61,906 nucleotides of DNA from assembly GCA_902769705.1 (NCBI GenBank), contig CACXPX010000035.1, positions 1-61,906 of the forward strand, in the 5' to 3' direction. This document shows positions 2,161-20,194 of the stretch, piece by piece (position 1 is the first letter of the stretch; every line of letters begins with the position of its first letter). Under the pieces are notes generated by a model, which saw only the letters and a list, made by a program, of their open reading frames with translations, searched no databases and was not told where the DNA came from. The position numbers and the translations under genes were made by a program. The stretch is from an uncultured Prevotellaceae bacterium (GTDB lineage Bacteria; Bacteroidota; Bacteroidia; Bacteroidales; Bacteroidaceae).

Positions 2161-2775
2161 TCAGTCTTTTACGAAGCTATTGTCAGCGGGGTCCCATAGG
2201 ATGTATTTCAAGGTGTTGCTGTTATCGGAAAGGCTGTGCAACTCGTAGGTTTTGTCCATATAGTGCAGATGGTAGGTTTCGCCGTTTGACAAGGTCACGG
2301 TCATGGTTTCGGTGTTCACTTGATAATTGAGTTTCTTGGGGTTCTCGCTCTCGCCGTTGTTGAAGTAGCACCAATCTGGATATCCCTTGAAATCTGTCCA
2401 AGTGTATTTGGCAAAGTTTTCTTGTTTATTCAGGAACTCTGCGGTCTTCTTACGGCCCACTAAGTATTTGTATACGGTGTTGTCTTTGTTGAACACCAGA
2501 ACACTCATGGGAAGGAAGACATAATTGTCTATGGTTTCATAATGGCCTGTCTGCCCAATACCGGCATCTCCAGGAACCCATACCTCTAAGGGAACGTTGA
2601 GGATTTCAACGGGGGGATCGTATTGCCTTAATGTGCCTTGTAGTTTGGTGAGCTTGTCGAGGGTTATGGTTGGCTCGTCGGTCTCATCGTCGTCTCCTCC
2701 GCAGGAAACGAATCCTGTACAAAGAATTGCTGCCAGAAGGGTGGCGAAAAATAGTGATAGATATTCTTTTTTCAT
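2161..2775 (-). CDS. SpII lipoprotein of unknown function
   Basis: 204 residues. An N-terminal lipoprotein signal with lipobox ending at Cys24 ('TGFVSC') is followed by the acidic linker GGDDDETDEP, typical of surface-exposed or outer-membrane lipoproteins in Bacteroidetes. The rest is beta-strand-like with no family I recognise. It is the first gene of a two-gene operon with the SH3-like protein and is preceded by a good -7 element (CAAATATA on the plus strand at 2886-2893). It may be an envelope lipoprotein partner of the SH3 protein; that is inference from adjacency only. Confidence 0.75.
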   Translation of the reverse strand: MKKEYLSLFFATLLAAILCTGFVSCGGDDDETDEPTITLDKLTKLQGTLRQYDPPVEILNVPLEVWVPGDAGIGQTGHYETIDNYVFLPMSVLVFNKDNTVYKYLVGRKKTAEFLNKQENFAKYTWTDFKGYPDWCYFNNGESENPKKLNYQVNTETMTVTLSNGETYHLHYMDKTYELHSLSDNSNTLKYILWDPADNSFVKD

Positions 2776-2885
2776 GTTGCTTATGGTTTAAGTTTGTAAT
2801 TGATTTGAAAGTTCTCGAAAAGGTGAGGATTCATCGTTTTTGATGAGTCGGCGTTTTTGGGGGATTTTTCTCCCATTATCGTTTG

Positions 2886-2893
2886 CAAATATA
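2886..2893 (-). promoter_or_regulatory. Bacteroidetes -7 element for lipoprotein operon
   Basis: TATATTTG on the minus strand matches TAnnTTTG and lies about 110 bp upstream of the lipoprotein start at 2775. Confidence 0.6.
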
Positions 2894-2950
2894 GTGTTTT
2901 TGTTTCGACGGTGCAAGCATTGGAAGGATTTTTTTGTGGGATGGAGAGGG

Positions 2951-4030
2951 TTAATATGCTGTGAATTCTTGATAAGCTTCGTGTGCCGACGGGTCGGGCT
3001 GCTCTTGCTGCTCGTGGTTGGCGGCTGAAGCGTTGTCTTCGTCGAGGAAGCGTTGGATGTCGGCCTGTATGCGGCGGAAGGGCTCTGCGGTCATGTATCC
3101 GAGGTTTTTCTTGAGCATGCTTCGGATGTCTTCGGTGCTCTTCGAGTAGCACGAGAGCTCGTTGCGGCGCTGTGTGCCGTGCATGCTTTGGCGGTTGATT
3201 TCGCTTTGGCGCTCGCGGATGAGCTGGTCGCATATTTTCTTCATCATGGGCACCACGATTTTGTCGAAGAAGTTGTGGCCTTGTATGTAGAGGTAGGTGG
3301 TTTCGGGTGTGACGCCGAGCCGTTTGATGTCTTCTTTCACGGCGAGGTAGGACTCTTTGGCGTCGGGGTTGGCGAGCTGCAGCTGCCGGATGCGCGAACC
3401 CACTTTGCGCCGCACGTTCTGGATGAGCCGTTCGGCGTTTTGTATGTTGAAGTTGCCGGTCTCGATGACGCGGTTGAAATCGCTGATGGTGAAGTCTTTG
3501 TAGTTGGGCGACCTGTAGTACCAGATGCTCCACACGAAGAGGGGGAAGATGGCGAGCGAGTATTGCCTCAGGTATTCGTCGATGTTGAAGATGGCGTGGT
3601 CGTTGAGTGTTGTGGCGACGCACACTTCATAGAGCGAGGGCGCGTAGCACTGTAGGTTTTCGATGGCGTAGGCGTAGGTGTGGAAGACATAGGGGTTGCT
3701 GAGCACTTCGCGCGAGGTCTCGGTGGCGCCTTGCATGAGGTAGTCGTAATCGGCGTCGACACAGGCTATCATGTCGTGTCCCACTTGTTGTGAGAGCAAC
3801 CTCATCATCACGGCTTTCTTGCCGCGCTCGAGGTGGTCGAATCTGGAGGGGAGCATCACTTGGAAGTATTGCGACTCGTTCTCGAAGCGGCTGAGCACGG
3901 TGCGCCAGAAGAAGACGTCGTCGTAGCTTTCCACGTAGGCCACGATGCGTCGGCGTGCTTTTTTCGAGGTCAGCCGGTTGGCGGCCTCAAAGTATTTGGA
4001 TGTCAGGTTGTCGCTGAGCCGTTTGCCCAT
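2951..4030 (-). CDS. DUF4435 (TOPRIM-like, AriB-type) protein
   Basis: 359 residues. It matches the DUF4435 pattern: an acidic residue in 'VAYVESYDDVFFW' (Glu34) and a DxDxD motif in 'MIACVDADYDYL' (Asp92/94/96), the expected metal ligands of a TOPRIM-like nuclease core. DUF4435 proteins are the AriB effector of PARIS anti-phage systems when paired with an AriA ATPase. Here an ABC-type ATPase gene lies just upstream on the same strand (4207-5025) with a 176-bp gap, so the pair layout fits. The C-terminal tail is acidic and Gln-rich. Members of this pair are also widespread in Bacteroidales, so a housekeeping role cannot be excluded. Family call firm, defence role inferred. Confidence 0.75.
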   Translation of the reverse strand: MGKRLSDNLTSKYFEAANRLTSKKARRRIVAYVESYDDVFFWRTVLSRFENESQYFQVMLPSRFDHLERGKKAVMMRLLSQQVGHDMIACVDADYDYLMQGATETSREVLSNPYVFHTYAYAIENLQCYAPSLYEVCVATTLNDHAIFNIDEYLRQYSLAIFPLFVWSIWYYRSPNYKDFTISDFNRVIETGNFNIQNAERLIQNVRRKVGSRIRQLQLANPDAKESYLAVKEDIKRLGVTPETTYLYIQGHNFFDKIVVPMMKKICDQLIRERQSEINRQSMHGTQRRNELSCYSKSTEDIRSMLKKNLGYMTAEPFRRIQADIQRFLDEDNASAANHEQQEQPDPSAHEAYQEFTAY

Positions 4031-4206
4031 AAGCGAGGGAGGAATTTAGGGGTTTAAAGAGTTTAAAGGGGAGTGGTAGGGCGTAAAGGGACATATGCTT
4101 TGGATGTCGAAGAGTTTGGCAGCATCGTGTTTTTTTGAGTGATGGATGGGGACTCATGTCCCTTTATACCTCTCACTCCTCTTTATGCCCTTGATGGCCT
4201 TTTTTT

Positions 4207-5025
4207 TTATTTGTCCGTGATATCCGACACTTCAGTCACATGGTCCACCCATCCGTTCATGATGACGGCTGGCGAGTGTGTGGTGAGGATGATTTGCACG
4301 TTGGGGTTGAGTTCGAGCAGGAGGTCGATGAGTTGCTGCTGCCAGTCTACATGCAGGCTCACTTCGGGCTCGTCCATGAAGAGCACGTAGTTCTGGTTGT
4401 CTTCCACGAGCACGGTGAGCAGGATGGCCAGCATCTGCTTCTCGCCGCTCGACAGCTGGTAGGGCACCAGCGACTCTCCGATTTGCGCGAAGCGGATTTC
4501 GTTTTCGGTGCGAATGATTTGCTTTCCCGTGTCGCGGAACAACTCGTCAACGATGTCCTGGAACCGGCGCTTGGGAATGCTGATTTGTTGGGCTTTTTCA
4601 GCTGCGTCGGGGGTGCCGCTTTGCAGGGTTTCGATGATGCGGTTGCCGATGTTCACCTGGTAGTCGAGGTATTTGCGTTGCAGCTGATAGAGCTGGAAGT
4701 CGAGTGCCGAAGAGATGCGCGTGTCGACATGGGTCATGGTCTCGAGGTCCAGCACAGGGCTGTCGAGCGAACGGATGATGTCGTAGCGTATCCACTTGGC
4801 ATCCTCGGGATACACCTTCAGCCTCACTCCCTTGAGCATGTGGCTGGGGAATTCTCCGCCTTGCGCGAGTCCTTTCACCACCTTGTTGATGATGGTGCTT
4901 TTGCCCACTCCGTTCATTCCGCTGAGGATGTTCACTTGGCGGTCCAGGTTCCACAGAATGTGCTTTCTGCCACCCCAGAGTGAGTCGATTTCAATCTGCT
5001 CGATATAGTCAGCGTACTTTTGCAT
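4207..5025 (-). CDS. AAA/ABC-type ATPase (AriA-like)
   Basis: 272 residues. Walker A is GMNGVGKST (36-44), the ABC-like signature is LSSGEKQ (191-197), Walker B is VLFMDEPEVSLH (214-225) and the switch His is in TTHSPAVI (His250). This is the AAA15/AAA21 class used as sensor-scaffold ATPases in PARIS, OLD and Gabija-like systems. It is shorter than typical AriA because the coiled-coil insert between Walker A and signature is small. It is followed by the DUF4435 gene; the two probably form one transcript from the -7 box at 5054-5061. The partner pairing argues for a PARIS-like module; the short length leaves a different conserved ATPase family possible. Confidence 0.75.
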   Translation of the reverse strand: MQKYADYIEQIEIDSLWGGRKHILWNLDRQVNILSGMNGVGKSTIINKVVKGLAQGGEFPSHMLKGVRLKVYPEDAKWIRYDIIRSLDSPVLDLETMTHVDTRISSALDFQLYQLQRKYLDYQVNIGNRIIETLQSGTPDAAEKAQQISIPKRRFQDIVDELFRDTGKQIIRTENEIRFAQIGESLVPYQLSSGEKQMLAILLTVLVEDNQNYVLFMDEPEVSLHVDWQQQLIDLLLELNPNVQIILTTHSPAVIMNGWVDHVTEVSDITDK

Positions 5026-5053
5026 GATATTCGGTTTTTAATGTTCTTTGGTG

Positions 5054-5061
5054 CAAATATA
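5054..5061 (-). promoter_or_regulatory. -7 element of ATPase/DUF4435 unit
   Basis: TATATTTG on the minus strand, 29 bp before the ATPase ATG. It is divergent from the AraC promoter about 50 bp away. Confidence 0.65.
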
Positions 5062-5105
5062 ATAAAAAACTGTCAACTTGCAATGTAGAAGCCCACTTTT
5101 TTTCG

Positions 5106-5113
5106 TAACTTTG
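5106..5113 (+). promoter_or_regulatory. -7 element of the AraC regulator gene
   Basis: TAACTTTG, matching TAnnTTTG, 54 bp before the ATG at 5167. Confidence 0.65.
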
Positions 5114-5166
5114 CCATCGAAAGTCTATTCATCCTGTCAAAACAGGGAACTTATTATCGCTATATC

Positions 5167-6042
5167 ATGCAAACGAGCAAGTATATGTTGGCCACCGAGC
5201 GCGATGCGTTGTGGGGGCTCACGGTGAGCACGGTGGGGTATGAGGAGATTGCTCCGGGCGATGTCTATCCTACGCGCGGACATGCCGACGGCTATTATTT
5301 CGACACGAAGAAAGGCCGTGTGCTGAACGAGTATCAACTGCTTTACCTCACTGAGGGCGAGGGCGAATTTGAGTCGGCCAACCAGCGGCTGACGCGCATC
5401 AAGGAGGGCGACCTCTTCCTGCTGTTTCCCGGTGAATGGCACACCTATCATCCGCTGTCCACACGCGGATGGAAGAGCTATTGGATAGGGTTCAAGGGCC
5501 GCAATGTGGACGACCGTGTGAGGGCTGGATTCCTCTCTCCCAAGAAACCCATCTACCACGTTGGCTTCAGCAGCGCCATCGTGAATCTCTACGGCGAGGC
5601 TATGCAGACGGCTCGCGAGGAGGCCGCCTATTCGCAGCAGACGCTGGCGGGCATTGTGAACCACTTGGTGGGGCTGATGTACTCTCTGGAGCGCAACCGC
5701 GAACTCAGCAAAGACCTCGGGCATGTGGACATGGTGAACCGGGCAAGGTTGCGCATCCGCGAATCGCTGGAGAGCGACTTGACTATCCAGCAGGTGGCTG
5801 AGGAGATGGGTATCAGCTATTCAAACTTCCGCAAGCTCTTCAAGGAGTTCACGGGCATTGCTCCGGCTATGTATCAGCAGGAATTGCGTCTGCAACGAGC
5901 CAAAGAGCTTTTGTCGGCCACCAACCTGAGTATCAAGGAGATAGCCTATCGGTTGAACTTCGAGTCGCCTGACTATTTCTCTTCGAAGTTCAAGAGCAAA
6001 ACGGGTCGCAAGCCCACCGATTTCCGATTGGAGATGCAGTGA
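5167..6042 (+). CDS. AraC-family transcriptional regulator
   Basis: 291 residues. The N-terminal part is a cupin-like AraC ligand pocket ('LLYLTEGEGEFES', 'GDLFLLFPGEWHTYHP'). The C-terminal ~100 residues carry the two helix-turn-helix motifs: 'LTIQQVAEEMGISYSNFRKLFKEFTG' in outline and 'SIKEIAYRLNFESPDYFSSKFK'. Such regulators usually sense a sugar and activate a nearby utilisation operon. The convergent neighbour is manA, and no sugar operon is adjacent, so the regulon is unknown. It ends with TGA. Confidence 0.88.
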   Translation: MQTSKYMLATERDALWGLTVSTVGYEEIAPGDVYPTRGHADGYYFDTKKGRVLNEYQLLYLTEGEGEFESANQRLTRIKEGDLFLLFPGEWHTYHPLSTRGWKSYWIGFKGRNVDDRVRAGFLSPKKPIYHVGFSSAIVNLYGEAMQTAREEAAYSQQTLAGIVNHLVGLMYSLERNRELSKDLGHVDMVNRARLRIRESLESDLTIQQVAEEMGISYSNFRKLFKEFTGIAPAMYQQELRLQRAKELLSATNLSIKEIAYRLNFESPDYFSSKFKSKTGRKPTDFRLEMQ

Positions 6043-11889: not shown

Positions 11890-12268
11890 CGAAAAAACGA
11901 GAGAAGAACAAAAGAAAAAGACTTTTTTTCTTTTTTATGCCGAGTGCAAGTAACTTCGGCGAAGCCAAAGTTACGAAAAGTTGAGCACAAAACAAAGAAA
12001 CTGTTTCTTTTTTTGTCGAGACGGAGGAGTTTCCTTGAGCGAAAAGCGAAAAACTTCAGCGAAGCATTCGTCCCTTTAAACCCTTCCACTCCTCTTTATG
12101 CCCTTTAAACCCTTTACGCCTTACGCATCACTCCCCTTTACGCCCTTTAACCCCTTCCTTTTAACCTAAAAATCAATAAAATTAAGGTTGCTGAAAAAAC
12201 AAACGTTGTTTTTGCTTAATTCGTTTTAATGCTTGCGGTCGATGCTTGCAAGATTGGCGGAAACGTGA

Positions 12269-12276
12269 TAACTTTG
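12269..12276 (+). promoter_or_regulatory. -7 element of 12308 gene
   Basis: TAACTTTG, about 30 bp before the ATG at 12308. Confidence 0.55.
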
Positions 12277-12307
12277 TCAAAAAATTAGAAAATCGCTTTT
12301 ATTGTTT

Positions 12308-12856
12308 ATGCTTCGGTTCTTAGTGTTTCTTGCGGCGTTGTGCCTGAGCGGCCGTGCAATGTGCCAGCGGCGCGTCGTGGTCTACGACATGGACACCAAT
12401 AAGCCTGTGGCGGGAGTTTCGGTGAGGTCCGATCATCACAAAGCTGTCACCACGGGGCTCGATGGTGTTGCCGTTGTTGAGGAACCGTCCGACAGCATAT
12501 CCTTCAGTCATGTGCAGTATGGGTTCGAGCGTTTGACAGCCCGCGAACTCCCCGACACGATGTTCCTGCTCCCCAACGACCACATGCTGCCTGAGGTGAC
12601 CGTCACCGAACTCGACCCGCGTGTGAAAGGCCTCATTGCGGCGTGGGCGAAGATGGGCGCCATGATGGGAGCGGCAGAGGCTCCCGCAGGCCTCGTCTCG
12701 TTCGACTTTGCCAACTTGCTCGACCGCCGTGGGCGTCGCGACCGCAAGCACAAAAAGCAGGCCGAAGTGATTCTCAAGGAGTGGGACAAGAAAAAGGTTG
12801 AGGGTATGGAAACGGAAACGGAAACCGAGGCCGAGACTGAGACCGAAAAAAAGTGA
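12308..12856 (+). CDS. Secreted carboxypeptidase-regulatory-like domain protein
   Basis: 182 residues from ATG at 12308; an alternative TTG two codons earlier is possible. It has a signal peptide (LRFLVFLAALCLSGRAMCQ), then a beta-sandwich resembling CarboxypepD_reg-like domains ('VVVYDMDTNKPVAGVSVRSD', 'TTGLDGVAVVEE'), as in the plug-adjacent domains of TonB-dependent receptors. The C-terminus is Lys/Glu-rich with a Glu-Thr repeat tail encoded by 'gaaacg/gagact' repeats. It ends with TGA and converges on the recoded operon, sharing the hairpin terminator at 12881-12910. Envelope role inferred from the domain. Confidence 0.7.
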   Translation: MLRFLVFLAALCLSGRAMCQRRVVVYDMDTNKPVAGVSVRSDHHKAVTTGLDGVAVVEEPSDSISFSHVQYGFERLTARELPDTMFLLPNDHMLPEVTVTELDPRVKGLIAAWAKMGAMMGAAEAPAGLVSFDFANLLDRRGRRDRKHKKQAEVILKEWDKKKVEGMETETETEAETETEKK

Positions 12857-12880
12857 TACTGTCTGCGTTATATATCAACA

Positions 12881-12910
12881 AAAGAAGGCGACCTGCGGGC
12901 CGCCCTCTTC
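12881..12910. terminator. Bidirectional hairpin terminator
   Basis: A 10-bp stem (GAAGAGGGCG / CGCCTTCTTT on the minus strand) with a 10-nt loop is followed on the minus strand by a T-rich run. It sits between the convergent 12308 gene and the recoded operon and can serve both. Confidence 0.65.
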
Positions 12911-12947
12911 AGTTTCACGATGTGGTAATCTTTCTTGCACTTCCTAT

Positions 12948-14579
12948 TTATCTGATAATGACCTTCTGTCCGTTCTCAATATAGACACCAGGCTTGGTGG
13001 GCTTTGCATCCAGGTGGATACCGTCGATGGTATACCATTCATCAGGTGTATAAGGCATTGTGACCGTATGAATGCCAGACGCATCTACTATGTTGACAGA
13101 AAAATCTTTTGTGATATTGAGGCCATTCCATTGATCATCGACCACAATAATTTGACCATTGATGGTATCTCCGGGTTTGTAGTTATAATTTTTGAGCGTT
13201 TCCCCATTGAGTCTCCATTCGAGGTTCATAGGATTTTGGGAGAAGATGAGTTCCTTGTTGTCATTAGTGAAAGGAATCCACTGGCCATTGATGTTCACTT
13301 CTGCACCAGGGATTTGGTAGACTACTCCATGATAGTATCCCTTCTCGAGGGGAGTGGTTTCATTGGTGCTGAATTTTGTGGGTAGAGATGTAGGCATGAG
13401 ATATTTCTGAAAAAATCCCGCAGGATTCATCAGTTGAAGTGGTTGGCTTTCAGGTTGACCATCAAGAATATCATTTGTATCTCCGTCTCCATTTAGGTCA
13501 AATCTGATATAGTCAGTAAGGGCAGTGGATCTTACCATTTCCAAAAATTCATCAACATCAGGTGTGTCTGCTTTCATTTGAAATAATATACTTGCAATGG
13601 CTACATTTACATAGTTTGTGAATGATGTGGCGTATTTTCCATTATTGGTATTTCCTTCTGCTTCGATTTTTCAGCTATTTAGAGAATGGTATGGGAACGC
13701 ACGTCAAGAAAATAAAACCTTATCGTGAAATCCTACAGGAAACAAACTACTTTCATATATTTCGTTTGTTTGATCGATATCTCAGTCTTTATTTGTTCAT
13801 ACTGTGGCAAATAGTGCAATATCTGCATCGCTATCATTTTTTCAATTTGCATTGGCTTGTAATGAATATATTCAGTGCTCATCTCAATCTACGTCTTTCT
13901 GGTATGATTTGTTTTTAAGAACTCAATACTCTTCATAAATATTTCATCCAGATTTGAATATAATGAGTTTTCCTGATTTGCATAATTCTCTAGCTTTACT
14001 ATTTTCGCTCCACTGTTGAAATTTCTCCTTATCTGTTTCAGCATAAGAAGAACTTCACAAAATTGAAATTGCGTTTGGATTGTTTTTAATAAATGTTTCT
14101 AATTTATTTTGCCATTGTTCTCATGATGTATAAACTACTTTGAAATTAGAATGCTTTACTATAGAATTTAATATACTCCATTCCCTATGAGAATGATCAT
14201 CTCATTCATCTCAGAATGCTCATTGTCCTATTATTTCAAAATTATCATATCATTTTGGATATTCACCTATCATCCCAGTGTTAAGTCTCATCATGAGATT
14301 TTGATACTCTTCAGCGCTATGATTACCTGCACCATACTTCCACATCATATCCGTGATTACAGTAGATTCTGGTATTCTGAGATGCTCTATATGTTTATAG
14401 ACATTTTTATCTCATACTTCCACTTTTGGCATTAGGTCTTCAGGATTGATATTCGTTATTTCTATGGATTTGTAGCCCTGAGCATAACTTCCATGAACGG
14501 CAAAGGCCATTCATGTAAGGAAGAAGAGCTTGATGATGGATTTCCAGCCAGTAGCGGATTTATTATTATTTGTATTCAT
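12948..14579 (-). CDS. Recoded secreted subtilase-like protein A (17 in-frame UGA)
   Basis: One open frame of 543 codons from ATG at 14579 to TAA at 12948, provided UGA is read as an amino acid. There are 17 TGA codons (e.g. codons 23 and 56) and no TAA, TAG or frameshift. With UGA as Gly the product has a signal peptide (KSIIKLFFLTGMAFAVHG..SYAQ). A protease-like domain follows, with 'GKYATSFTNYVNVAIASI' resembling the GTSxAxP serine motif of S8 subtilases and 'KLIIFKSGGN' the strand before it. It ends in the Prevotella-type tail 'PTKPGVYIENGQKVIIR'. The last ~210 codons are less AT-rich and free of TGA. A conventional annotation would show only 12948-13577 or a pseudogene. Paralogue of 14605-16332, 25 bp downstream of it. 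Frame certain; protease assignment tentative. Confidence 0.8.
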
Positions 14580-14604
14580 AGCGGAGTGTCTTAATGATTC
14601 TATT

Positions 14605-16332
14605 TTATCTGACAATGACCTTCTGTCCGTTCTCTATATAGACGCCAGGCTTGGTGGGCTTTGCATCCAGTTGAATACCGTCGATGGTATACCATTCATC
14701 AGGTGTATAAGGCATTGTAACTGTATGAATGCCAGACGCATCTACTATGTTGACAGAAAACTCTTTTGTGATATTGAGGCCATTCCATTTGTCGTCTACT
14801 GCGATAATCAGCCCGTTGATGGTGTCTCCAGGTTTGTAGTTGTAATTATCGAGCAATTTCCCGTTGAGCCTCCATTTGAGGTTCATAGGATTTTGAGAGA
14901 AGATGATTTCCTTGTTGTCATCAGTAAACGGAATCCACTGACCATTGATGTTTACCTCTGCACCAGGAATCTGGTAGGCTACGCCATGATAATATCCCTT
15001 CTCGAGGGGAGTGGTTTCATTAGTGCTGAATTTTGTGGGTAGAGATGTAGGCATCAGATATTTCTGGAAGAATCCCGCAGGATTCATGAGTAGTAGAGGC
15101 TGGGTTTCTGGCTGACCGTCAAAAATATCATTTGTGTCTCCGTCTCCATTCAGGTCGAATCTGATATAGTCAGTAAGGGCTGTAGCTCTAACCATTTCTA
15201 ATAGCTTATCGACATCAGGAGTGTCTGCTTTCATCTGGAATAATATGCTTGCTATGGCTACATTAGAGTATGTTGTATATGATGTTGAATATTTTCAATT
15301 ATTTCTACTTCCTCATTCTGCTGAGATTTTTCAGGATGATTCTATTGGGAACGCACGTCAGGAGAATAATACATTATTTCTAAATCATACAGGAAATTTG
15401 CTACTTTCAATGATTTCATTAGTCTGATCTATATCTCAGTCAGCATCTGTTCAGATGGTTACAAGAAGGTGGCTATTGGGTTGTGTGTTCTTATCGGAAT
15501 TAGCCATAGAAACTAGAGAATACCAACCAAATTCATCTGCTTCATATTCTCCGTTATATATTTTATTTCTTAAATGTCATCCTTTTGAATTGATATTTGT
15601 TCCAGCAGCAAAAATAATAATATTATTCATATTGCATAAATCTTTTACACTTTTTTTATTTAATCGTTTATCATAACCAGATTTTGTACTTTCTGATCCA
15701 TATGCCGAACATCAAAAGATATTTATAGAATTAGAATTGTTTTTTACAAATTCTGTTAGTGCATTTTCTCGTGATGTATCATTTGGATTATTTACTTTAA
15801 AATTGGCATGCTTTATCAATGTATTCAATATGCTTCGTTCGCTAGTGGCATGTAAATCAGCCTCCCCGCCATTTCATCATCATATAACTTCATAGTCGTA
15901 TCATTGTGGACATTCTTGTATCATTCCAATATTAAGTCTCATCATCAATTCCTGATATTCTTCAGCACTATATTTATCTGCACCGTATTTCCACATCATC
16001 TCCGTGACTACAGTGGATTCAGGTATTCTGAGATGTTCTATGTGTTTATAGACTTTTTTATCTCATACTTCTACTTTTGGCATTAGGTCTTCAGGATTGA
16101 TATTTGTTATAGTGATAGCTTTGTATTCCCTACCGGCAACGCTGATTTTCCCCACACCGTTGAGGTCCACGTTGGAGCGGTGGAGTATGGTCTTCGGCGC
16201 TTCCGAGATGTCATCGGAACCGCACGGAGCGAAAGCCGTCGTCGTGATTCAAACGGTGGCGAGTGTGGTTGTTGCCAGAAGTGTGGCAAAGAATGTTTTT
16301 CTTGCGGGTTGTTGTTTCTTGATTCAGGTCAT
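14605..16332 (-). CDS. Recoded secreted subtilase-like protein B (16 UGA, 3 CGA)
   Basis: 575 codons from ATG at 16332 to TAA at 14605 in one frame, with 16 TGA codons (including codons 3, 28 and three in a row near codon 151), no TAA/TAG and no frameshift. Reading UGA as Gly gives a signal peptide (KKQQPARKTFFATLLATTT.., hydrophobic through codon 33), then 'ITNINPEDLMPKVEVGDK', shared with copy A. The middle is a divergent protease-like domain ('NNIIIFAAGTN', 'GKYSTSYTTYSNVAIASI'). The C-terminus is 91% identical to copy A (190 of 209 residues). Codons 166, 188 and 223 are CGA and align with TGG in copy A. The C-terminal ~210 codons use GGA but never TGA. It is first in the two-gene operon behind the 16648-16679 promoter. 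Confidence 0.8.
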
Positions 16333-16339
16333 ATTGTGT

Positions 16340-16640
16340 TCAGATGTCGTTGCGGACGTATCCGTTCGCCTTGAACATGTTTTCGGGGATGAGGAGGTTG
16401 GCCCCCAGTGGAGAGTCGTTTCGTTGAGTGTGCCTATCCTCGGACAGCAGCCGTGCCAACTTGCCTACATATCCCTATGCAGCTTAATAAGGCATACTTT
16501 CCATTCCCTGTCCTTGCACCGACGCTCCCGGCCATTCCTTTGCTGCCGTACTGGGCTGTGAACGCGGATAAGCGCTACCCCCAGCCGTGACCCCGTCCGC
16601 ACGCTCGCGAAACTGGAATGTCCAGTTGTTAATCAGGTTT
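16340..16640 (-). pseudogene. Remnant coding fragments in the leader of the recoded operon
   Basis: Two short GC-richer pieces look like former coding sequence. One open stretch of about 45 codons ends in 'FKANGYVRNDI' and TGA at 16340-16342, just before the copy-B ATG. Another further upstream reads 'NLINNWTFQFRERADG...' and stops at 16484-16486. They are in different frames with stops between, so I read them as the eroded ends of a lost gene carried in the 5' leader. Product not recognised. Confidence 0.4.
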
Positions 16641-16647
16641 ATCGATG

Positions 16648-16679
16648 CAAAAATAGGAAAAAGACTTGAAACTTCCAAA
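16648..16679 (-). promoter_or_regulatory. Bacteroidetes promoter of the recoded operon
   Basis: On the minus strand, -33 TTTG (16676-16679), 20 bp, then -7 TATTTTTG (16648-16655). The predicted start is near 16641, giving a ~310-nt leader before copy B. It is the only convincing promoter upstream of the two recoded genes. Confidence 0.7.
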
Positions 16680-16784
16680 TGATTCGTTGTTTTTTTGCTT
16701 CATGTCGTTGTTTGCCGTTTCCTGAAGCTCACAGGATTCTGCCTTGAAGTTGAAGAAGAGCAATATACTACTAATTTTAATTTT

Positions 16785-16869
16785 TTGTTGCAACCTTGCC
16801 ACACCTCGTGTAACACGTTGTGAAACAATGGGTTAAGGTGTTGCAAGAGTGTGGCATTGGTGGCAACAA
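16785..16869. repeat. Imperfect inverted repeat with 35-bp arms
   Basis: Arms 16785-16819 and 16835-16869 are imperfect reverse complements (TTGTTGC-ACC--GCCACAC---G-AACAC-TT) around a 15-bp spacer. It lies upstream of the recoded-operon promoter and beside the dyad array. It could be a hairpin, a binding site or a miniature element end. Confidence 0.55.
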
Positions 16870-16892
16870 CTTCGGTTGGCGCTCTTGAATTG

Positions 16893-16997
16893 TTACCCAT
16901 AAGTGGTAAGGCCGTTACCACATAGCGGTAATGAGCTTACCACATAGCGGTAATGAGCTTACCACATAGCGGTAATAGGGTTACATCATATTGGTAA
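16893..16997. promoter_or_regulatory. Five tandem TTACC-N7-GGTAA dyads, 22-bp period
   Basis: Units at 16893-16909, 16915-16931, 16937-16953, 16959-16975 and 16981-16997. Each is a 17-bp dyad TTACC N7 GGTAA (the last degenerate in its left arm) and starts exactly 22 bp after the previous one, about two helical turns. Units 2-4 are identical. This is the geometry of a cooperative operator or an iteron. It stands between the recoded operon promoter (minus, 16679) and the tRNA promoter (plus, 17327), so it could control either or both. No replication gene is nearby. Confidence 0.7.
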
Positions 16998-17039
16998 TGG
17001 GGGCACCTAAAGGGCGTAAAGGGACATTAGTCTCTAGCA

Positions 17040-17290
17040 AAGAGCGGCCTGAAGGGCTCAGATTGTGGTCCCCTCCCTTTTTGTTAGGCACGGATGACAC
17101 GGGTTTCACGATTTTTTTCTTGGGAGGGAACCTTGTTCATGGTTCAGAGTCCAGAGTGTTTGGCAATAATATTGCAGTTGACCCAAACGCCCCAACGGGG
17201 CAGCAGCAACCAGCCCAAGGCAGCGCCTTGGGTAAGGGGCATGTGAGAAAGACGCGCGGCCTTTCAGGCCGCTCTTTATCCGAAAGGGTC
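17040..17290. repeat. REP-like GC-rich palindromic repeat, copy 3
   Basis: It has the 'agagcggcctgaaggg', 'cgccccaacggggcagcag', 'cccaaggcagcgccttggg' and 'ggcctttcaggccgc' modules of the family, immediately upstream of the tRNA promoter. Confidence 0.7.
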
Positions 17291-17326
17291 AACTGCGATA
17301 TTATTGCCAAAAAAAGAATAATTCTT

Positions 17327-17357
17327 TTTGTTTTGTACTCGTTTTTTCGTATCTTTG
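17327..17357 (+). promoter_or_regulatory. Bacteroidetes promoter of the tRNA pair
   Basis: -33 TTTG (17327-17330), exactly 19 bp, -7 TATCTTTG (17350-17357), and the tRNA 5' end 12 bp later. Such a strong consensus argues that the unusual tRNAs are transcribed genes, not relics. Confidence 0.8.
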
Positions 17358-17368
17358 CCAACAAGTTG

Positions 17369-17461
17369 GCGGGTGTAGTGTAATGGCAGCACGCAAGACT
17401 TCAGATCTTGATTCGGCGTACCTCCAGTGCGCAGGCGCGGGTTCGATTCCCGTCACCCGCT
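17369..17461 (+). tRNA. tRNA with anticodon UCA, glycine-type body, extra arm (predicted UGA-reading tRNA-Gly)
   Basis: A 93-nt cloverleaf plus one arm. Acceptor stem GCGGGTG / CACCCGC is perfect, with discriminator U73 (17461), as in bacterial tRNA-Gly. D arm is GTG...CAC with the GG of the loop. Anticodon stem CAAGA / TCTTG encloses loop CTTCAGA, so positions 34-36 are U-C-A (17401-17403), complementary to UGA. T arm is GCGGG TTCGATT CCCGT. Between anticodon and T arms is a 26-nt region with a 5-bp stem GCGTA / TGCGC (17416-17432) and a 7-nt loop CCTCCAG holding UCC, the Gly anticodon, at loop positions 3-5. It is not tRNA-Sec: 7-bp acceptor, short D stem, no GGAAGAT-type end. Expected function: insert Gly at UGA in the adjacent recoded genes. 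Confidence 0.85.
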
Positions 17462-17515
17462 CTTTGGCAATTGATAATTGACAATTGACAATTAACTTCG
17501 TTGATAATGATAATT

Positions 17516-17606
17516 GCGGGCATAGTGTAAAGGTAGCACACAGGCTTTCGGGGCCTGAATGTCGGCTTCCAATCCGATAGTGGGGGTTCGAGTCCTCCTG
17601 CCCGTG
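17516..17606 (+). tRNA. tRNA with anticodon UCG, discriminator G, extra arm (predicted CGA-reading tRNA-Trp)
   Basis: 91 nt. Acceptor GCGGGCA / TGCCCGT (G-U at the first pair), discriminator G73 (17606) as in tRNA-Trp. D arm GTG...CAC. Anticodon stem CAGGC / GCCTG with loop TTTCGGG, so positions 34-36 are U-C-G (17548-17550), complementary to CGA. T arm GGGGG TTCGAGT CCTCC. The region between anticodon and T arms contains a 5-bp stem GTCGG / CCGAT (17561-17578) with 8-nt loop CTTCCAAT, which contains CCA, the Trp anticodon (or UCC if counted from the 5' side). It lies 54 bp after the UCA tRNA with no promoter of its own visible, so the two are probably co-transcribed. The amino acid is inferred from G73, the CCA loop and the CGA/TGG alignment of the recoded genes. 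An Arg identity is not excluded. Confidence 0.75.
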
Positions 17607-17616
17607 CTAAAGAGAA

Positions 17617-17692
17617 AATAGCCTCTCCCCAGTCCCCTCATTCCCGAGCAAGGCTCGCCTACCCGTAGCTTTTCCCGTGGGGAAGGGAGATT
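17617..17692. repeat. Short intergenic repeat after the tRNA pair
   Basis: The stretch with 'cctcattcccgagcaaggct', 'cctacccgtagc' and 'cccgtggggaagggag' recurs in diverged form at about 60686-60748. The CTCTCCCC...GGGGAAGGGAG arms can pair and may terminate the tRNA transcript. Confidence 0.5.
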
Positions 17693-17704
17693 ATAAAAGC
17701 ATCT

Positions 17705-18706
17705 ATGGAAGACGAGAAGATACAACAGCAGCCGCATCCTAAAGACAACTTCAAGGCGTGGTCGGACCCGATGTTTGAAGACCTGCGCCGTATGTTCTCG
17801 CGCTCACGTCTTCGTGAGGTGCTGACTCATAGCAGTTTCTACGAGCAGGAGGGCAAGGGCAACAGCCGGTATGTGTTTGCTGGGATGTTTGTGTTCAAGG
17901 GAATGGTGGCCGACGTGCTTTTCCATTATTACACGGGCGAGGGTACTCGGCTTCAGCATGTGTTGGGCAATCTGTTCAGGCAGGAGCGCCTTGAGCAGTT
18001 GTTCGACGAATGGCAGCTTAGGCAGTTTGCCCGCGCTGGCGAGTCGTTCGATATTGGCAAGCACAAGCACATCTTTGTCTATGCCATCATGGGGTATGTG
18101 AGCACACTGGACGAGAATACCCGCAACTGGTTCATCTCGAAATATATCATCAACAAGGATACCGAACATCTTCTGAGCCACTGGAAGCGCAACAGCGACC
18201 TGCTGGCACAGGCCGACGATATGGTGAGGCAGACCGACGGGCGACGGCTCACGCTGGAGATGGAGGTGACGGAAGACGGGTTGAACAGGGCGAAGGCCAT
18301 GCTTTCGGATGGTACGGTGCTTTGCGAGGCTGTGAGCAAGAGTTGGCGTTACGCCCGAACAAAGGTGACAAAGATGGCGCTGAACCTTTTGGCAATGCCC
18401 AGCAGAAAGTATCTGCTCTCGAATCCCGAATACCAAGCGCGTGTGTTGGAACGCAAAAAGGCTGAACAGGAACAGCGCAGGGCAGAGGTGGAGGAGCGCG
18501 AAGCACAGAAGAAAGAGGCTCGCGAGAAGCGCAAGGAGGATTGGAAAGCAGAGTGCAGGGCTCGCGATGCGAAACGTCGTGCGAGTCAGGCAGCCGCAAA
18601 GAAACGCAAGGCAGAGAATGCCGCCCGTGCCGCTGCCAAAGCCGCAAAGGAGTCACGCCCGATGAGTGCGAAGAAACGCCGTTTCTTGGAAGACAAGAAG
18701 AAATAA
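17705..18706 (+). CDS. Degenerate RNase III-like protein with basic tail
   Basis: 333 residues. The N-terminal ~130 follow the RNase III fold: 'LREVLTHSSFYEQEGKGNSR' matches the 'aLTHrSy..e...N.rl' helix, and 'FVYAIMGYVSTLDENTRNWF' matches the 'fEAliGAiylD' helix. The catalytic Glu/Asp signature (ERLEFLGD) is replaced by SRYVFAGM, so it is probably not a nuclease. Residues ~180-235 resemble a dsRNA-binding domain. The last ~100 residues are a Lys/Arg/Ala-rich helix. Cytosolic RNA-binding role inferred. It begins 98 bp downstream of the UCG tRNA in the same direction and could be co-transcribed with the two tRNAs, which makes a link to tRNA processing or stability worth testing. It uses CGA in ordinary Arg context (e.g. 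at GRRL). Confidence 0.65.
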   Translation: MEDEKIQQQPHPKDNFKAWSDPMFEDLRRMFSRSRLREVLTHSSFYEQEGKGNSRYVFAGMFVFKGMVADVLFHYYTGEGTRLQHVLGNLFRQERLEQLFDEWQLRQFARAGESFDIGKHKHIFVYAIMGYVSTLDENTRNWFISKYIINKDTEHLLSHWKRNSDLLAQADDMVRQTDGRRLTLEMEVTEDGLNRAKAMLSDGTVLCEAVSKSWRYARTKVTKMALNLLAMPSRKYLLSNPEYQARVLERKKAEQEQRRAEVEEREAQKKEAREKRKEDWKAECRARDAKRRASQAAAKKRKAENAARAAAKAAKESRPMSAKKRRFLEDKKK

Positions 18707-18728
18707 CAATACTTTGCGCCTGCAGGTT

Positions 18729-18759
18729 TTTGTTATTCAGTTATTTTTTTGTATATTTG
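18729..18759 (+). promoter_or_regulatory. Promoter of the pepC-type peptidase gene
   Basis: -33 TTTG (18729-18732), 19 bp, -7 TATATTTG (18752-18759), about 30 bp before the ATG. Confidence 0.75.
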
Positions 18760-18790
18760 CACGTAGAAAACCAATATCAGAAAAAACGAT

Positions 18791-20194
18791 ATGAACAAAC
18801 ATTTCTTTTTAGCACTGTGCATGCTGGCATCACTGTCGGCTTCGGCACAGAAAACCGATGGGGGAATCACGCAGCAGATGCTTCAGCAGATGGAGAAGGC
18901 TCAGGCTGCCACCCCACAGCAGAAGGCTCTTTTCAATGCCATTTCGCAGTTCTCGATAGACGACTTGGCCAAGAACTTTGCCAATCAGGGCGACTTCGAC
19001 ACTCACTTCAGCATTGAGACGCCCAAGCAGAGCATCCACGACCAGAAGTCGAGTGGCCGCTGCTGGATGTTCTCGGGGCTGAACGTGCTGCGTGCCAACT
19101 TTGCCAAGCAGCATGAGGACACTCTGGCTGTGGAGTTCTCTCACGACTATTTGTTCTTCTACGACCAGCTGGAGAAGGCCAACCTGATGCTTCAGGGCGT
19201 CATCGACTGCGCACAGAAGCCCATCGACGACTTGCGCGTGCAGTTCTTCTTCCACCATCCCATCAACGATGGAGGTACGTTCTGCGGCGTGGCCGACTTG
19301 GCCAGCAAGTACGGACTGGTGCCGAAGGGCCTGCAGCCTGAGACCTATAGTGCTGACAACACCAGTCGCATGCAGCGTGTGGTGAGCTCGAAGCTGCGCG
19401 AATTCGGATTGGAGCTGCGCCAGATGGTGGCCGACAAGAAGAGACCTGCCGCCATTGCCAGTCGCAAGACGGAGATGCTGACGGCCATCTACCGCATGCT
19501 CTGCCTGACGCTGGGCGAGCCCGTGAAGGAGTTCACTTATGCTCATGTGGACAAGTACGGCAAGCAGGTGGGCGAGCCGCGCCGATACACGCCGAAGGAG
19601 TTCTATGCCGAGACGGTGGGTGGCGACTTGAACGGCACTTTCATCATGGTGATGAACGACCCGCGAAGACCTTATTACAAGACTTTCGAGGTGGAATACG
19701 ACCGTCATACCTACGACGGACACAACTGGAAGTACCTGAACCTCCCGATGGAGGACATCGAGAAGCTGGCCATTGCGTCGTTGAAAGACGGCAGGAAACT
19801 GTATTCCAGCTATGACGTAGGCAAGCAGTTCGACCGCAAACGTGGCTATTTGGATACCGAGAACTACGATTTCGAGTCGCTCTTCGGTACAGAGTTCACG
19901 ATGGACAAGGCTCAGCGCATCTCAACGTTCGACAGCGGTTCGACCCATGCGATGACGCTGACGGCGGTGGATTTGGACAATAACGGACAGCCTCGCAAAT
20001 GGAAGGTGGAGAACTCATGGGGAGCAAGCTCGGGATTGGGCGGCTGTCTGATTATGACCGACCGTTGGTTCCGTGAATACATGTTCCGCCTGGTGGTTGA
20101 CAAGAAGTATGTTCCCGAAGAGACTTTGCGCCAGTTCGAACAGAAGCCGTTGATGGTGATGCCGGAGGATCCGTTGTTCCAAATGGACGAGTAG
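18791..20194 (+). CDS. pepC: C1-family peptidase (bleomycin hydrolase/aminopeptidase C type)
   Basis: 467 residues. The papain-like triad is visible: Gln and Cys in 'QKSSGRCWMFSGLNVLRANF', His in 'DSGSTHAMTLTAVDLD', Asn in 'KWKVENSWG'. Length and the N-terminal 'DFDTHFSIETPKQSIHDQ' are those of PepC/bleomycin hydrolase. Unlike cytosolic PepC it has an N-terminal signal peptide (NKHFFLALCMLASLSASAQ), as is usual for Bacteroidales homologues, so it acts in the periplasm or outside, probably on peptides. It has its own consensus promoter and a repeat-filled 3' flank. Confidence 0.88.
   Translation: MNKHFFLALCMLASLSASAQKTDGGITQQMLQQMEKAQAATPQQKALFNAISQFSIDDLAKNFANQGDFDTHFSIETPKQSIHDQKSSGRCWMFSGLNVLRANFAKQHEDTLAVEFSHDYLFFYDQLEKANLMLQGVIDCAQKPIDDLRVQFFFHHPINDGGTFCGVADLASKYGLVPKGLQPETYSADNTSRMQRVVSSKLREFGLELRQMVADKKRPAAIASRKTEMLTAIYRMLCLTLGEPVKEFTYAHVDKYGKQVGEPRRYTPKEFYAETVGGDLNGTFIMVMNDPRRPYYKTFEVEYDRHTYDGHNWKYLNLPMEDIEKLAIASLKDGRKLYSSYDVGKQFDRKRGYLDTENYDFESLFGTEFTMDKAQRISTFDSGSTHAMTLTAVDLDNNGQPRKWKVENSWGASSGLGGCLIMTDRWFREYMFRLVVDKKYVPEETLRQFEQKPLMVMPEDPLFQMDE

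Follow-up and report, generated by a model that had tools for sequence, protein, structure and literature searches.

The question raised by this locus is how two long genes, interrupted by a single kind of stop codon, could be read in a bacterium of the Bacteroidales. In the window, as we call the whole stretch of 61,906 nucleotides that was analyzed, recoded gene B (14605..16332, minus strand; ATG at 16332, TAA at 14605; 575 codons) holds 16 TGA and 3 CGA codons in frame; its paralogue gene A, downstream on the same strand (12948..14579; ATG at 14579, TAA at 12948; 543 codons), holds 17 TGA codons, and neither has an internal TAA or TAG. As gene A contains no CGA, the CGA observation within the window rests on gene B. 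In the other two same-strand frames of these genes, TAA occurs 10 to 21 times and TAG 7 to 14 times per frame, and at least 209 C-terminal codons of each gene are free of TGA. The counts confirm the two TGA-rich frames that the original prediction had described.

The original prediction had also named an observation that would speak against it, namely, relatives carrying the genes with mixed stop codons but without the tRNAs. In the part of this comparison that was run, no such relative appeared: among 301 genomes of the family, the A/B gene family is present in one, the window's own, and searching with an A/B-family profile produced 20 rows of matches, spread over 13 of the 26 genomes, inside which the in-frame stops of the cassette genomes are 263 TGA versus 5 TAA or TAG, the five counting against the module. 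That the genes are pseudogenes or chance frames is contradicted by this great excess of TGA and by the covariation of an RNA leader described below. Contamination or an assembly artefact might be suspected since most loci come from metagenome assemblies, but the module recurs in many of them, with tRNA, RNase III-like gene, and leader all present in a record titled Prevotella sp. tf2-5 (where a run of N breaks the assembled target gene), and the window's own genome is 99.42% complete and 0.29% contaminated; we give such explanations almost no weight.

The A/B family has no peptidase match in Pfam, NCBIfam, or PDB sequences, so the predicted secreted protease was not borne out, and a toxic product is likewise not supported. 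Motifs that look subtilase-like by eye receive no support from the library and PDB searches, and we therefore refer to an orphan family; an AlphaFold model was set aside (pLDDT 34). The N terminus of gene B resembles a signal peptide by eye, and no relative of gene B was found in phages.

Codon meanings were addressed by scoring the codons of 17 A/B-family sequences against the residues aligned in relatives, a method that agreed with table 11 for 58 of 59 standard codons and failed for CGC. Over 255 TGA codons, glycine scored 2.30 versus 0.32 for serine, and the commonest residue aligned to UGA positions was glycine, not cysteine or selenocysteine. With TGA read as glycine, other families also match (pth in L048, 2.3e-60; GNAT in L070, 5.5e-11). 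By this comparison, UGA is shown to stand where relatives have glycine in leader-linked genes, in agreement with the predicted UGA=Gly. CGA scored as tryptophan (1.29) in loci with a UCG tRNA (24 codons) and did not in loci without one (4 codons). Twelve of the 24 codons, in three homologous columns, support tryptophan; the remaining 12 include one codon at a conserved arginine column (L100) and two that follow a run of N, where the frame is doubtful (L111a). The comparison thus suggests, more weakly than for UGA, that a subset of CGA codons stands where relatives of leader-linked genes have tryptophan, as had been proposed. CGG scored as arginine over 7 codons, of which a single one comes from a locus that has a CCG tRNA.

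The dedicated tRNAs that had been predicted are found about 1 kb from the recoded genes, on the plus strand. A Bacteroidetes-type promoter recognized by eye (17331..17359; TTTG ... TATCTTTG at about 17332-17357), whose TCGTA-CTTTGC letters align in L002 and L003, stands in front of a glycine-type tRNA with anticodon UCA (17369..17462), which would read UGA, and a tryptophan-type tRNA with anticodon UCG (17516..17607), which would read CGA. Both were identified by ARAGORN and by the Rfam tRNA model (62 and 52.6 bits, respectively; cut-off, 29). When judged by the glycine and tryptophan identity criteria used in PMC8629427, the former has G1:C72, C2:G71, G3:C70, and U73, and the latter has G73 and G1:U72. 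Across loci, U73 with G1:C72 occurs in 33 of 34 UCA tRNAs, and G73, U72, and G or A at position 1 occur in 23 of 23 UCG tRNAs and in 4 of 4 with anticodon CCG, the last found in 4 loci. Comparison therefore shows that tRNAs with anticodons UCA, UCG, and CCG bear identity elements of the glycine or tryptophan type and have a long variable arm, as do both tRNAs of the window. That UGA might instead specify selenocysteine, tryptophan, or serine is suggested by the ARAGORN label of the UCA tRNA (SeC) and by its long variable arm, which recalls tRNA-Sec and tRNA-Ser; against this stand the aligned residues, which clearly favor glycine, the U73 and glycine-type acceptor stem, and the occurrence of up to 33 UGA codons in one gene, which together make it extremely improbable.

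The surrounding chromosome was predicted to use the standard code, and this was upheld: the window's own genome encodes RF2, TGA ends 37 of 117 sampled host genes, and CGA occurs 4.70 times per 1000 codons. In the sampled stretches, UGA remains a stop codon and CGA use is ordinary, and the genome does not follow table 25 as a whole. Of the 301 family genomes, the same three, among them the window's own, carry the UCA tRNA, the RNase III-like gene, and the leader. A genome of another family (G394), found with the RNase III-like profile alone, holds a complete module: both tRNAs (UCG and UCA), a leader that has diverged (77.5 bits), and a start reading ATG ATA CTT TGA.

Gene B is preceded on the minus strand by a structured RNA leader. 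At the leader's 5' end lies a promoter -7-like element assigned by eye (TATTTTTG, 16648..16655; TAnnTTTG-like letters are aligned in the leaders), the stretch with 59 consensus pairs spans 16384..16598 (core of model R1, 16429-16586), and gene B begins ATG ACC TGA (16324..16332), which places a gate UGA at codon 3. In the leader alignment, 95.5% of cells are paired and 29 of the 59 pairs vary on both sides; none of 500 shuffles reached this level, and slid controls were at most 48.1% paired. Folded as a single sequence, the window leader is no better than its shuffles (z 0.30), so the claim of structure rests on covariation. A possible pairing of the tRNA variable loops with the leader, considered by eye, was dropped because the leader letters vary. 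An Rfam scan of 12000-19000 with E up to 1 returned the two tRNAs and one sub-threshold match outside the leader, with none inside it, and the leader had no match in plasmids, phages, or viral contigs (viral contigs by exact pattern).

The leader is common to target genes of several kinds and also stands in front of recoded genes that the A/B profile does not match. The R1 search gave a single leader in each of 18 cassette genomes and none in the other 17 of the 35, namely, five Bacteroidota records that fall outside the group rich in leaders (L047, L054, L060, L062, and L065), three with the titles Desulfocapsa, Gammaproteobacteria, and Gallionella, and a further nine, among them G317, whose gene in L056 still starts ATG-N-TGA. 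All 18 leaders are followed by an ATG with a TGA at codon 3 to 5; for 6 of these genes the start is ambiguous (an extra in-frame ATG lies upstream), and choosing the ATG nearest the first TGA favors the gate. In codons 2 to 6 of 17 leader genes, the ratio of TGA to GGN is 17:1, versus 236:418 in the rest (Fisher, 5e-7). The early UGA is kept in L104 and L105a although most glycines there are GGN. Among downstream operon genes with an ATG start, a count that omits L101b (frame start arbitrary), 0 of 4 have TGA before codon 12; gene A, for which the R1 search found no leader of its own, has its first TGA at codon 23. The operator that had been suspected for the recoded genes proves to be this conserved, structured leader with a UGA soon after it, and the predicted gating role is supported.

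Behind the tRNAs and in the same direction lies a gene for a 333-amino-acid RNase III-like protein (17705..18706, plus strand), which, like the covarying leader, was missed in the earlier sequence-only reading. It was found in 28 of 35 UCA-tRNA loci (divergent from the tRNAs in L060), and searches of plasmids and viral contigs gave no relative. The protein has a dsRBD-like part and a long basic helix; its domain matches are PF14622 (1.5e-6, but below the cut-off of that family) and DSRM_2 (0.012). Foldseek ranked a mitoribosome large-subunit chain, which we take to be mL44, best for the structural model (6.5e-7), followed by RNase III (1.5e-6). Together, these matches point to an RNase III superfamily fold comprising an RNase III-like domain and a dsRBD. 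The mitoribosomal RNase III-fold chains share 11 to 14% identity with it (top 25 rows), and the protein here differs in being tied to a tRNA operon. The catalytic motif of RNase III is NERLEFLGD; it reads NARLEFLGD in the 7r97 alignment, and the corresponding stretch contains no acidic residue in any of 12 aligned rows. In this motif, the protein lacks the acids expected of an active enzyme.

Our combined results suggest that the locus is probably a module dedicated to the recoding of particular genes, with a UGA gate close to the start codon, and some Bacteroidales appear to have a chromosomal kit that writes a few exported-looking proteins in a private code while the rest of the genome stays standard. 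Host GlyRS and TrpRS would charge the UCA and UCG tRNAs. With the cassette off, ribosomes starting behind the leader would end at the gate UGA after 2 to 4 residues, so that no fragment of the exported protein would be made; with the cassette on, glycine-tRNA(UCA) would read both the gate and the UGAs that follow it, and CGA would be read by tryptophan-tRNA(UCG). Private decoding may be favored by the leader on the mRNA that carries it, perhaps with the RNase III-like protein bound there, and UGA stops and CGA codons elsewhere would thereby be spared. We tentatively propose, as a plausible extension held with less confidence than the module itself, that leader RNA and RNase III-like protein channel both tRNAs to leader-bearing mRNAs, so that two codes, gated by UGA, operate side by side in one cytoplasm as a multi-codon counterpart of selenocysteine insertion.

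Confinement of the decoding might be due to leader and protein or only to tRNA supply. In the latter case, conditionally made tRNAs would read UGA and CGA on any mRNA, restricted by timing and not by targeting; the leader would then serve as a conventional regulatory 5' UTR (an attenuator or a riboswitch), and turnover of tRNA or leader would be the task of the RNase III-like protein. The position of the leader between a promoter-like element and a start codon is that of a regulatory 5' UTR, downstream recoded genes without their own R1 leader are still rich in TGA (17 in gene A, 10 in L105b, and 15 in L105c), and the targeting step is one that we infer. A free and efficient tRNA(UCA), however, would meet about one-third of host stops (37/117), and the sampled genes avoid neither UGA stops nor CGA; supply alone also leaves unexplained why an RNase III-like gene without catalytic acids travels with the tRNAs. 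We regard an untargeted supply as unlikely, but as an alternative to be taken seriously.

For Absconditabacteria, UGA has been reported to encode glycine, and CGA and CGG to encode tryptophan (PMC8629427). In Gracilibacteria, UGA likewise encodes glycine. The meaning of UGA and the tRNA identity elements are the same here, as that of CGA may be where supported; CGG=Trp finds no support in the 7 codons scored. The shared meanings would fit a remnant of import from Absconditabacteria or Gracilibacteria, in which the genes came with their tRNAs and are drifting back to the standard code. So would the share of TGA among glycine codons, which is lower in loci without a UCG tRNA (0.08-0.22 in five genes) than in loci with one (0.27-0.64 in twelve genes), but L103 (without; 20/75 = 0.27) and L036 (with; 2/17 in a cut gene) are exceptions; L048, in addition, holds an IF-2 piece containing TGA and an extra pth copy. 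An import remnant gives no account of one conserved leader with an early UGA before different kinds of gene, of the early UGA in the GGN-rich L104 and L105a, or of a tRNA operon with an RNase III-like gene, and we consider it improbable. The code of these low-GC patescibacteria is genome-wide, whereas here it concerns a few leader-linked genes in chromosomes that keep UGA stops and RF2 (as shown for the window's own genome).

Selenocysteine insertion, which uses tRNA-Sec, SelB, and the SECIS element, resembles the proposed module in its gene-specific reading of UGA, long-armed tRNA, structured mRNA element, and protein encoded beside the tRNA. The module differs in that each gene would receive an ordinary amino acid at many positions and a sense codon would be reassigned as well. 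Its structured element is located in the 5' UTR, and its tRNAs are accompanied by an RNase III-like protein. In some sulfate reducers, a selC* tRNA-Cys, with anticodon UCA in some cases, occurs with SelB* and CysRS* (PMC7609411); this tRNA, too, serves a standard amino acid and has partner genes of its own, but it involves cysteine, a modified 8/4 structure, and a SelB-type partner, and the passages on selC* in PMC7609411 make no mention of a structured leader with an early UGA. Recoded phages likewise combine a local alternative code with their own suppressor tRNA (PMC10746230), but those are genomes of phages. The UCA tRNAs of 28 viral contigs share the D-arm, and 18 of the 28 have a long variable arm; no leader was found in the viral stretches examined, and a long arm is therefore not necessarily recognized by the RNase III-like protein. 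IMG/VR yielded no leader (exact pattern) and no relative of the RNase III-like protein (tblastn-confirmed scan). Among the matches listed in a literature search, with subscription papers and preprints outside its scope, no title or abstract opening described such a module.

Gene finders that apply the standard code break recoded genes at each UGA, and such genes are therefore likely to be missed. A new structured RNA and a candidate RNA-binding protein come with the locus. If our reading is correct, a bacterium can maintain an additional code for selected genes, one in which a sense codon is reassigned as well, while the code of its genome is unchanged. Such a module would stand midway in the evolution of genetic codes and would be a natural example of orthogonal translation, in which the way that one stop codon and one sense codon can each carry two meanings within a single cell would be directly testable.

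The two paralogous minus-strand genes of the window, A (12948..14579) and B (14605..16332), proved to be open frames interrupted by TGA only, as predicted from the sequence: gene A contains 17 and gene B 16 in-frame TGA codons, neither contains TAA or TAG before its final TAA, and the other frames on the same strand of this stretch hold many of both. CGA is found in gene B (three codons) and not in gene A. Both predicted tRNA genes, with anticodons UCA (17369-17462) and UCG (17516-17607), were located roughly 1 kb away from where gene B starts, and immediately behind them lies a gene for an RNase III-like protein of 333 amino acids (17705-18706). The stretch separating gene B from the tRNA operon contains repeats spaced 22 nt apart, with arms TTACC...GGTAA (16893-17002), possibly an array of binding sites; two inverted repeats (arms of 26 and 19 nt; 17039-17311) lie immediately upstream from the tRNA promoter.

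Codon scoring strongly favored glycine, the predicted meaning of UGA. Seventeen members of the A/B family (the L103 member was left out) were aligned, TGA, CGA, and CGG were masked, and each amino acid was scored against the remaining members; over 255 TGA codons glycine scored 2.30 and serine, the next, 0.32. As a control, the table 11 residue was recovered for 58 of the 59 standard codons used at least five times. The predicted reading of CGA as tryptophan gained weaker support. Tryptophan scored 1.29 in loci with a UCG tRNA (24 codons) but was not favored in loci lacking that tRNA, where leucine scored best (4 codons). Relatives have tryptophan at 12 of the 24 codons, but these all fall within three columns, one of the others (L100) occupies a column where arginine is conserved, and two more (L111a) follow a run of N. 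CGG scored as arginine over 7 codons, of which just one came from a locus with a CCG tRNA. Genes of loci without the UCG tRNA (L045/L104, L051/L105, and L053/L106) use TGA for a small share of glycines (0.08 to 0.22), which looks like a partial reversion toward the standard code.

Recoded frames outside the A/B family were also seen. L048 holds an additional copy of pth with 8 TGA codons, at 5 of which a homologue has glycine; it matches Pfam at 2.3e-60 when TGA is read as glycine. This copy and an IF-2-like piece with 2 TGA codons in the open frame (the two lie at 1943-2665 and 2746-3279) adjoin a tRNA cassette (UCA/CCG/UCG). The assembly, of Bacteroidales, contains two further pth matches without stops, and the two pieces may have been imported from an organism with UGA=Gly. 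In L070 (6789-7998), two further TGA/CGA frames lie behind a recoded repeat gene, one M16-like (weak, 0.0058) and one a GNAT acetyltransferase (Pfam match, 5.5e-11).

The window is one contig of a 3.60-Mb genome (72 contigs; 99.42% complete, 0.29% contaminated) in which RF2 scored above the cut-off. Over ten 20-kb stretches of it, 37 of 117 called genes stop at TGA and the CGA frequency is 4.70 per 1000 codons, compared with 19 of 112 genes and 3.92 per 1000 in five relatives without the module (two 20-kb stretches each), where differences in base composition give small frequency differences little meaning. These sampled figures reveal no sign of avoidance of UGA stops or CGA; by this measure, with CGA judged by its usage frequency, the host keeps the standard code, as originally predicted.

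The search of relatives called for by the original prediction found the UCA tRNA in 3 of 301 family genomes (blastn; the own genome, G139, and G195), each time adjoined by the UCG tRNA, and an exact-pattern scan, which forms deviating from the pattern escape, found 35 loci in a collection of 84,980 species. One is titled Prevotella sp. tf2-5, and 20 have RUG, RGIG, or red-deer names in their titles, which we take as ruminant gut origin. ARAGORN called 34 UCA, 23 UCG, and 4 CCG tRNA genes in these loci and the window, and no UCA gene in L057 and L061. Position U73 with G1:C72 is found in 33 of the 34 UCA tRNAs, the exception (L049, a Coriobacteriia assembly) having G73 and A1:U72; all 23 UCG and all 4 CCG tRNAs have G73, G or A at position 1, and U at 72, and the variable region spans 19 to 26 nt. 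Shulgina and Eddy applied these same criteria to glycine and tryptophan identity (PMC8629427). The L049 locus (4168-5217) pairs its tryptophan-type UCA tRNA with a glycosyltransferase-like frame holding 4 TGA codons, some of which fit tryptophan by eye. UCA tRNAs that are glycine-type (U73, G1:C72) and have a long variable region also occur in L044, L058, and L068 (titled Desulfocapsa, Gammaproteobacteria, and Gallionella), with neither the RNase III-like gene nor the leader described below. Separately, 28 viral contigs (L006 to L033) carry UCA tRNAs of an unusual common shape, sharing the same D-arm; the variable arm is long in 18, with TCCA in its loop among those listed, and a number of the contigs also encode a Trp tRNA close by.

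The RNase III-like gene accompanies the tRNAs in 28 of the 35 loci (tblastn; a 24-amino-acid tail only in L057), mostly downstream on the same strand (divergent in L060), and was not found by tblastn in L044, L046, L049, L050, L058, L061, and L068. Among the 301 family genomes it was found in the 3 that carry the UCA tRNA; it was also found in 2 of 344 order genomes and 1 of 375 phylum genomes, each of these counts including the own genome. The protein falls short of the family cut-off for Pfam Ribonucleas_3_3 (1.5e-6); the nearest structures to its AlphaFold model (pLDDT 80, pTM 0.44) are RNase III and a mitochondrial ribosome large-subunit chain, which we take to be mL44. All 12 aligned members lack an acidic residue at the position of the RNase III acidic motif; judged by this motif, it is therefore probably a binding protein.

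DNA upstream from gene B matches DNA upstream from recoded genes in other genomes, from a TAnnTTTG-like promoter element to the start codon. The consensus fold of 17 such leaders has 59 pairs, with 95.5% of cells paired and 29 pairs changed on both sides; none of 500 shuffles reached this, and sliding the partners lowered pairing to 35-48%. Folded alone, the window leader gave no signal (z, 0.30), and Rfam held no matching family. A covariance model of the leader (R1) found one leader per genome in 18 of 35 cassette genomes and, among the 301 family genomes, a leader in the 3 that have the UCA tRNA. In the 16 loci where both were located, 88 to 3057 bases separate the leader from the UCA tRNA; the two are divergent in 12 of these loci and share a strand in 4. 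A search with the RNase III-like profile alone, across the 344 order genomes, independently yielded one new genome, G394, from a different family, with UCG and UCA tRNAs in front of the gene and a leader behind it (77.5 bits; E, 3.7e-21), followed by a frame that starts ATG ATA CTT TGA and by eye is unlike gene A or B.

The targets are diverse. The A/B family occurs in 13 of 26 cassette genomes and 1 of 301 family genomes, and seven leader-bearing genomes (G139, G195, G302, G307, G309, G310, and G321) gave no match to its profile at E 1e-10, which places their leader genes in different or strongly diverged groups. By eye, other targets include a repeat protein (L063, L067, and L070), a third kind (L039 and L042), and the G394 frame, and many begin like signal peptides or lipoproteins. 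The suggestion of a secreted protease found no support in our searches, the first-gene products showing no clear family match. The window also encodes an SprA-type protein (50548-58296; PF14349, 1.1e-250), which points to a possible type 9 secretion system in the host. In L048, the recoded gene has a tail that matches Por_Secre_tail only weakly (0.011).

The idea that recoding gates expression gained from the position of the first UGA. Behind all 18 leaders, an ATG lies 89 to 106 nt past the model end and is followed by TGA at codon 3 (14 genes), 4 (2), or 5 (2). In 12 genes no other ATG within the searched 130 nt opens a longer frame than the chosen one; in the other six (L066, L108, L043, L063, L055, and L036) an extra in-frame ATG lies upstream, and the ATG nearest the TGA, at the same leader distance, was chosen, which favors this result. 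Across 17 leader genes (L132, cut by the contig end, was omitted), glycine codons at positions 2 to 6 comprise 17 TGA and 1 GGN, versus 236 TGA and 418 GGN elsewhere (Fisher, 5e-7). The early UGA is kept even where most other glycines are GGN, as in L105 (5 TGA, 57 GGN), and the first gene of L104 likewise retains it despite a low TGA share. The same pattern is seen in L056, which begins ATG-N-TGA and has 28 TGA although R1 matched nothing in its genome, and in L048 (ATG-N-N-TGA; a divergent leader visible by eye only, its R1 score at chance level, E 0.14). In four downstream genes with an ATG start and no leader of their own (L101b excluded), the first TGA comes at codon 12 to 23. The main rival explanation is a plain supply gate, in which tRNA supply sets decoding without targeting; genes after the first, such as gene A, have no leader of their own and would have to benefit from the shared mRNA or from free tRNA.

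Among the matches listed, the titles and abstract openings of the literature covered, a scope outside which preprints and most subscription papers fall, contain no description of such a module. It works similarly to selenocysteine insertion yet is not a member of that class, since it uses glycine and extends to a sense codon. At the level of sequence comparison, we have shown a local code, tRNA identity elements, co-occurrence of the parts, a covarying leader, an early UGA, and, in the stretches sampled, a host whose UGA and CGA usage is unchanged. On the most likely reading, a gene-specific module of this kind, host GlyRS and TrpRS would charge the tRNAs; translation would terminate at the gate UGA when the tRNAs are absent and run to full length when they are present, and the leader and the RNase III-like protein may take part in confining decoding.
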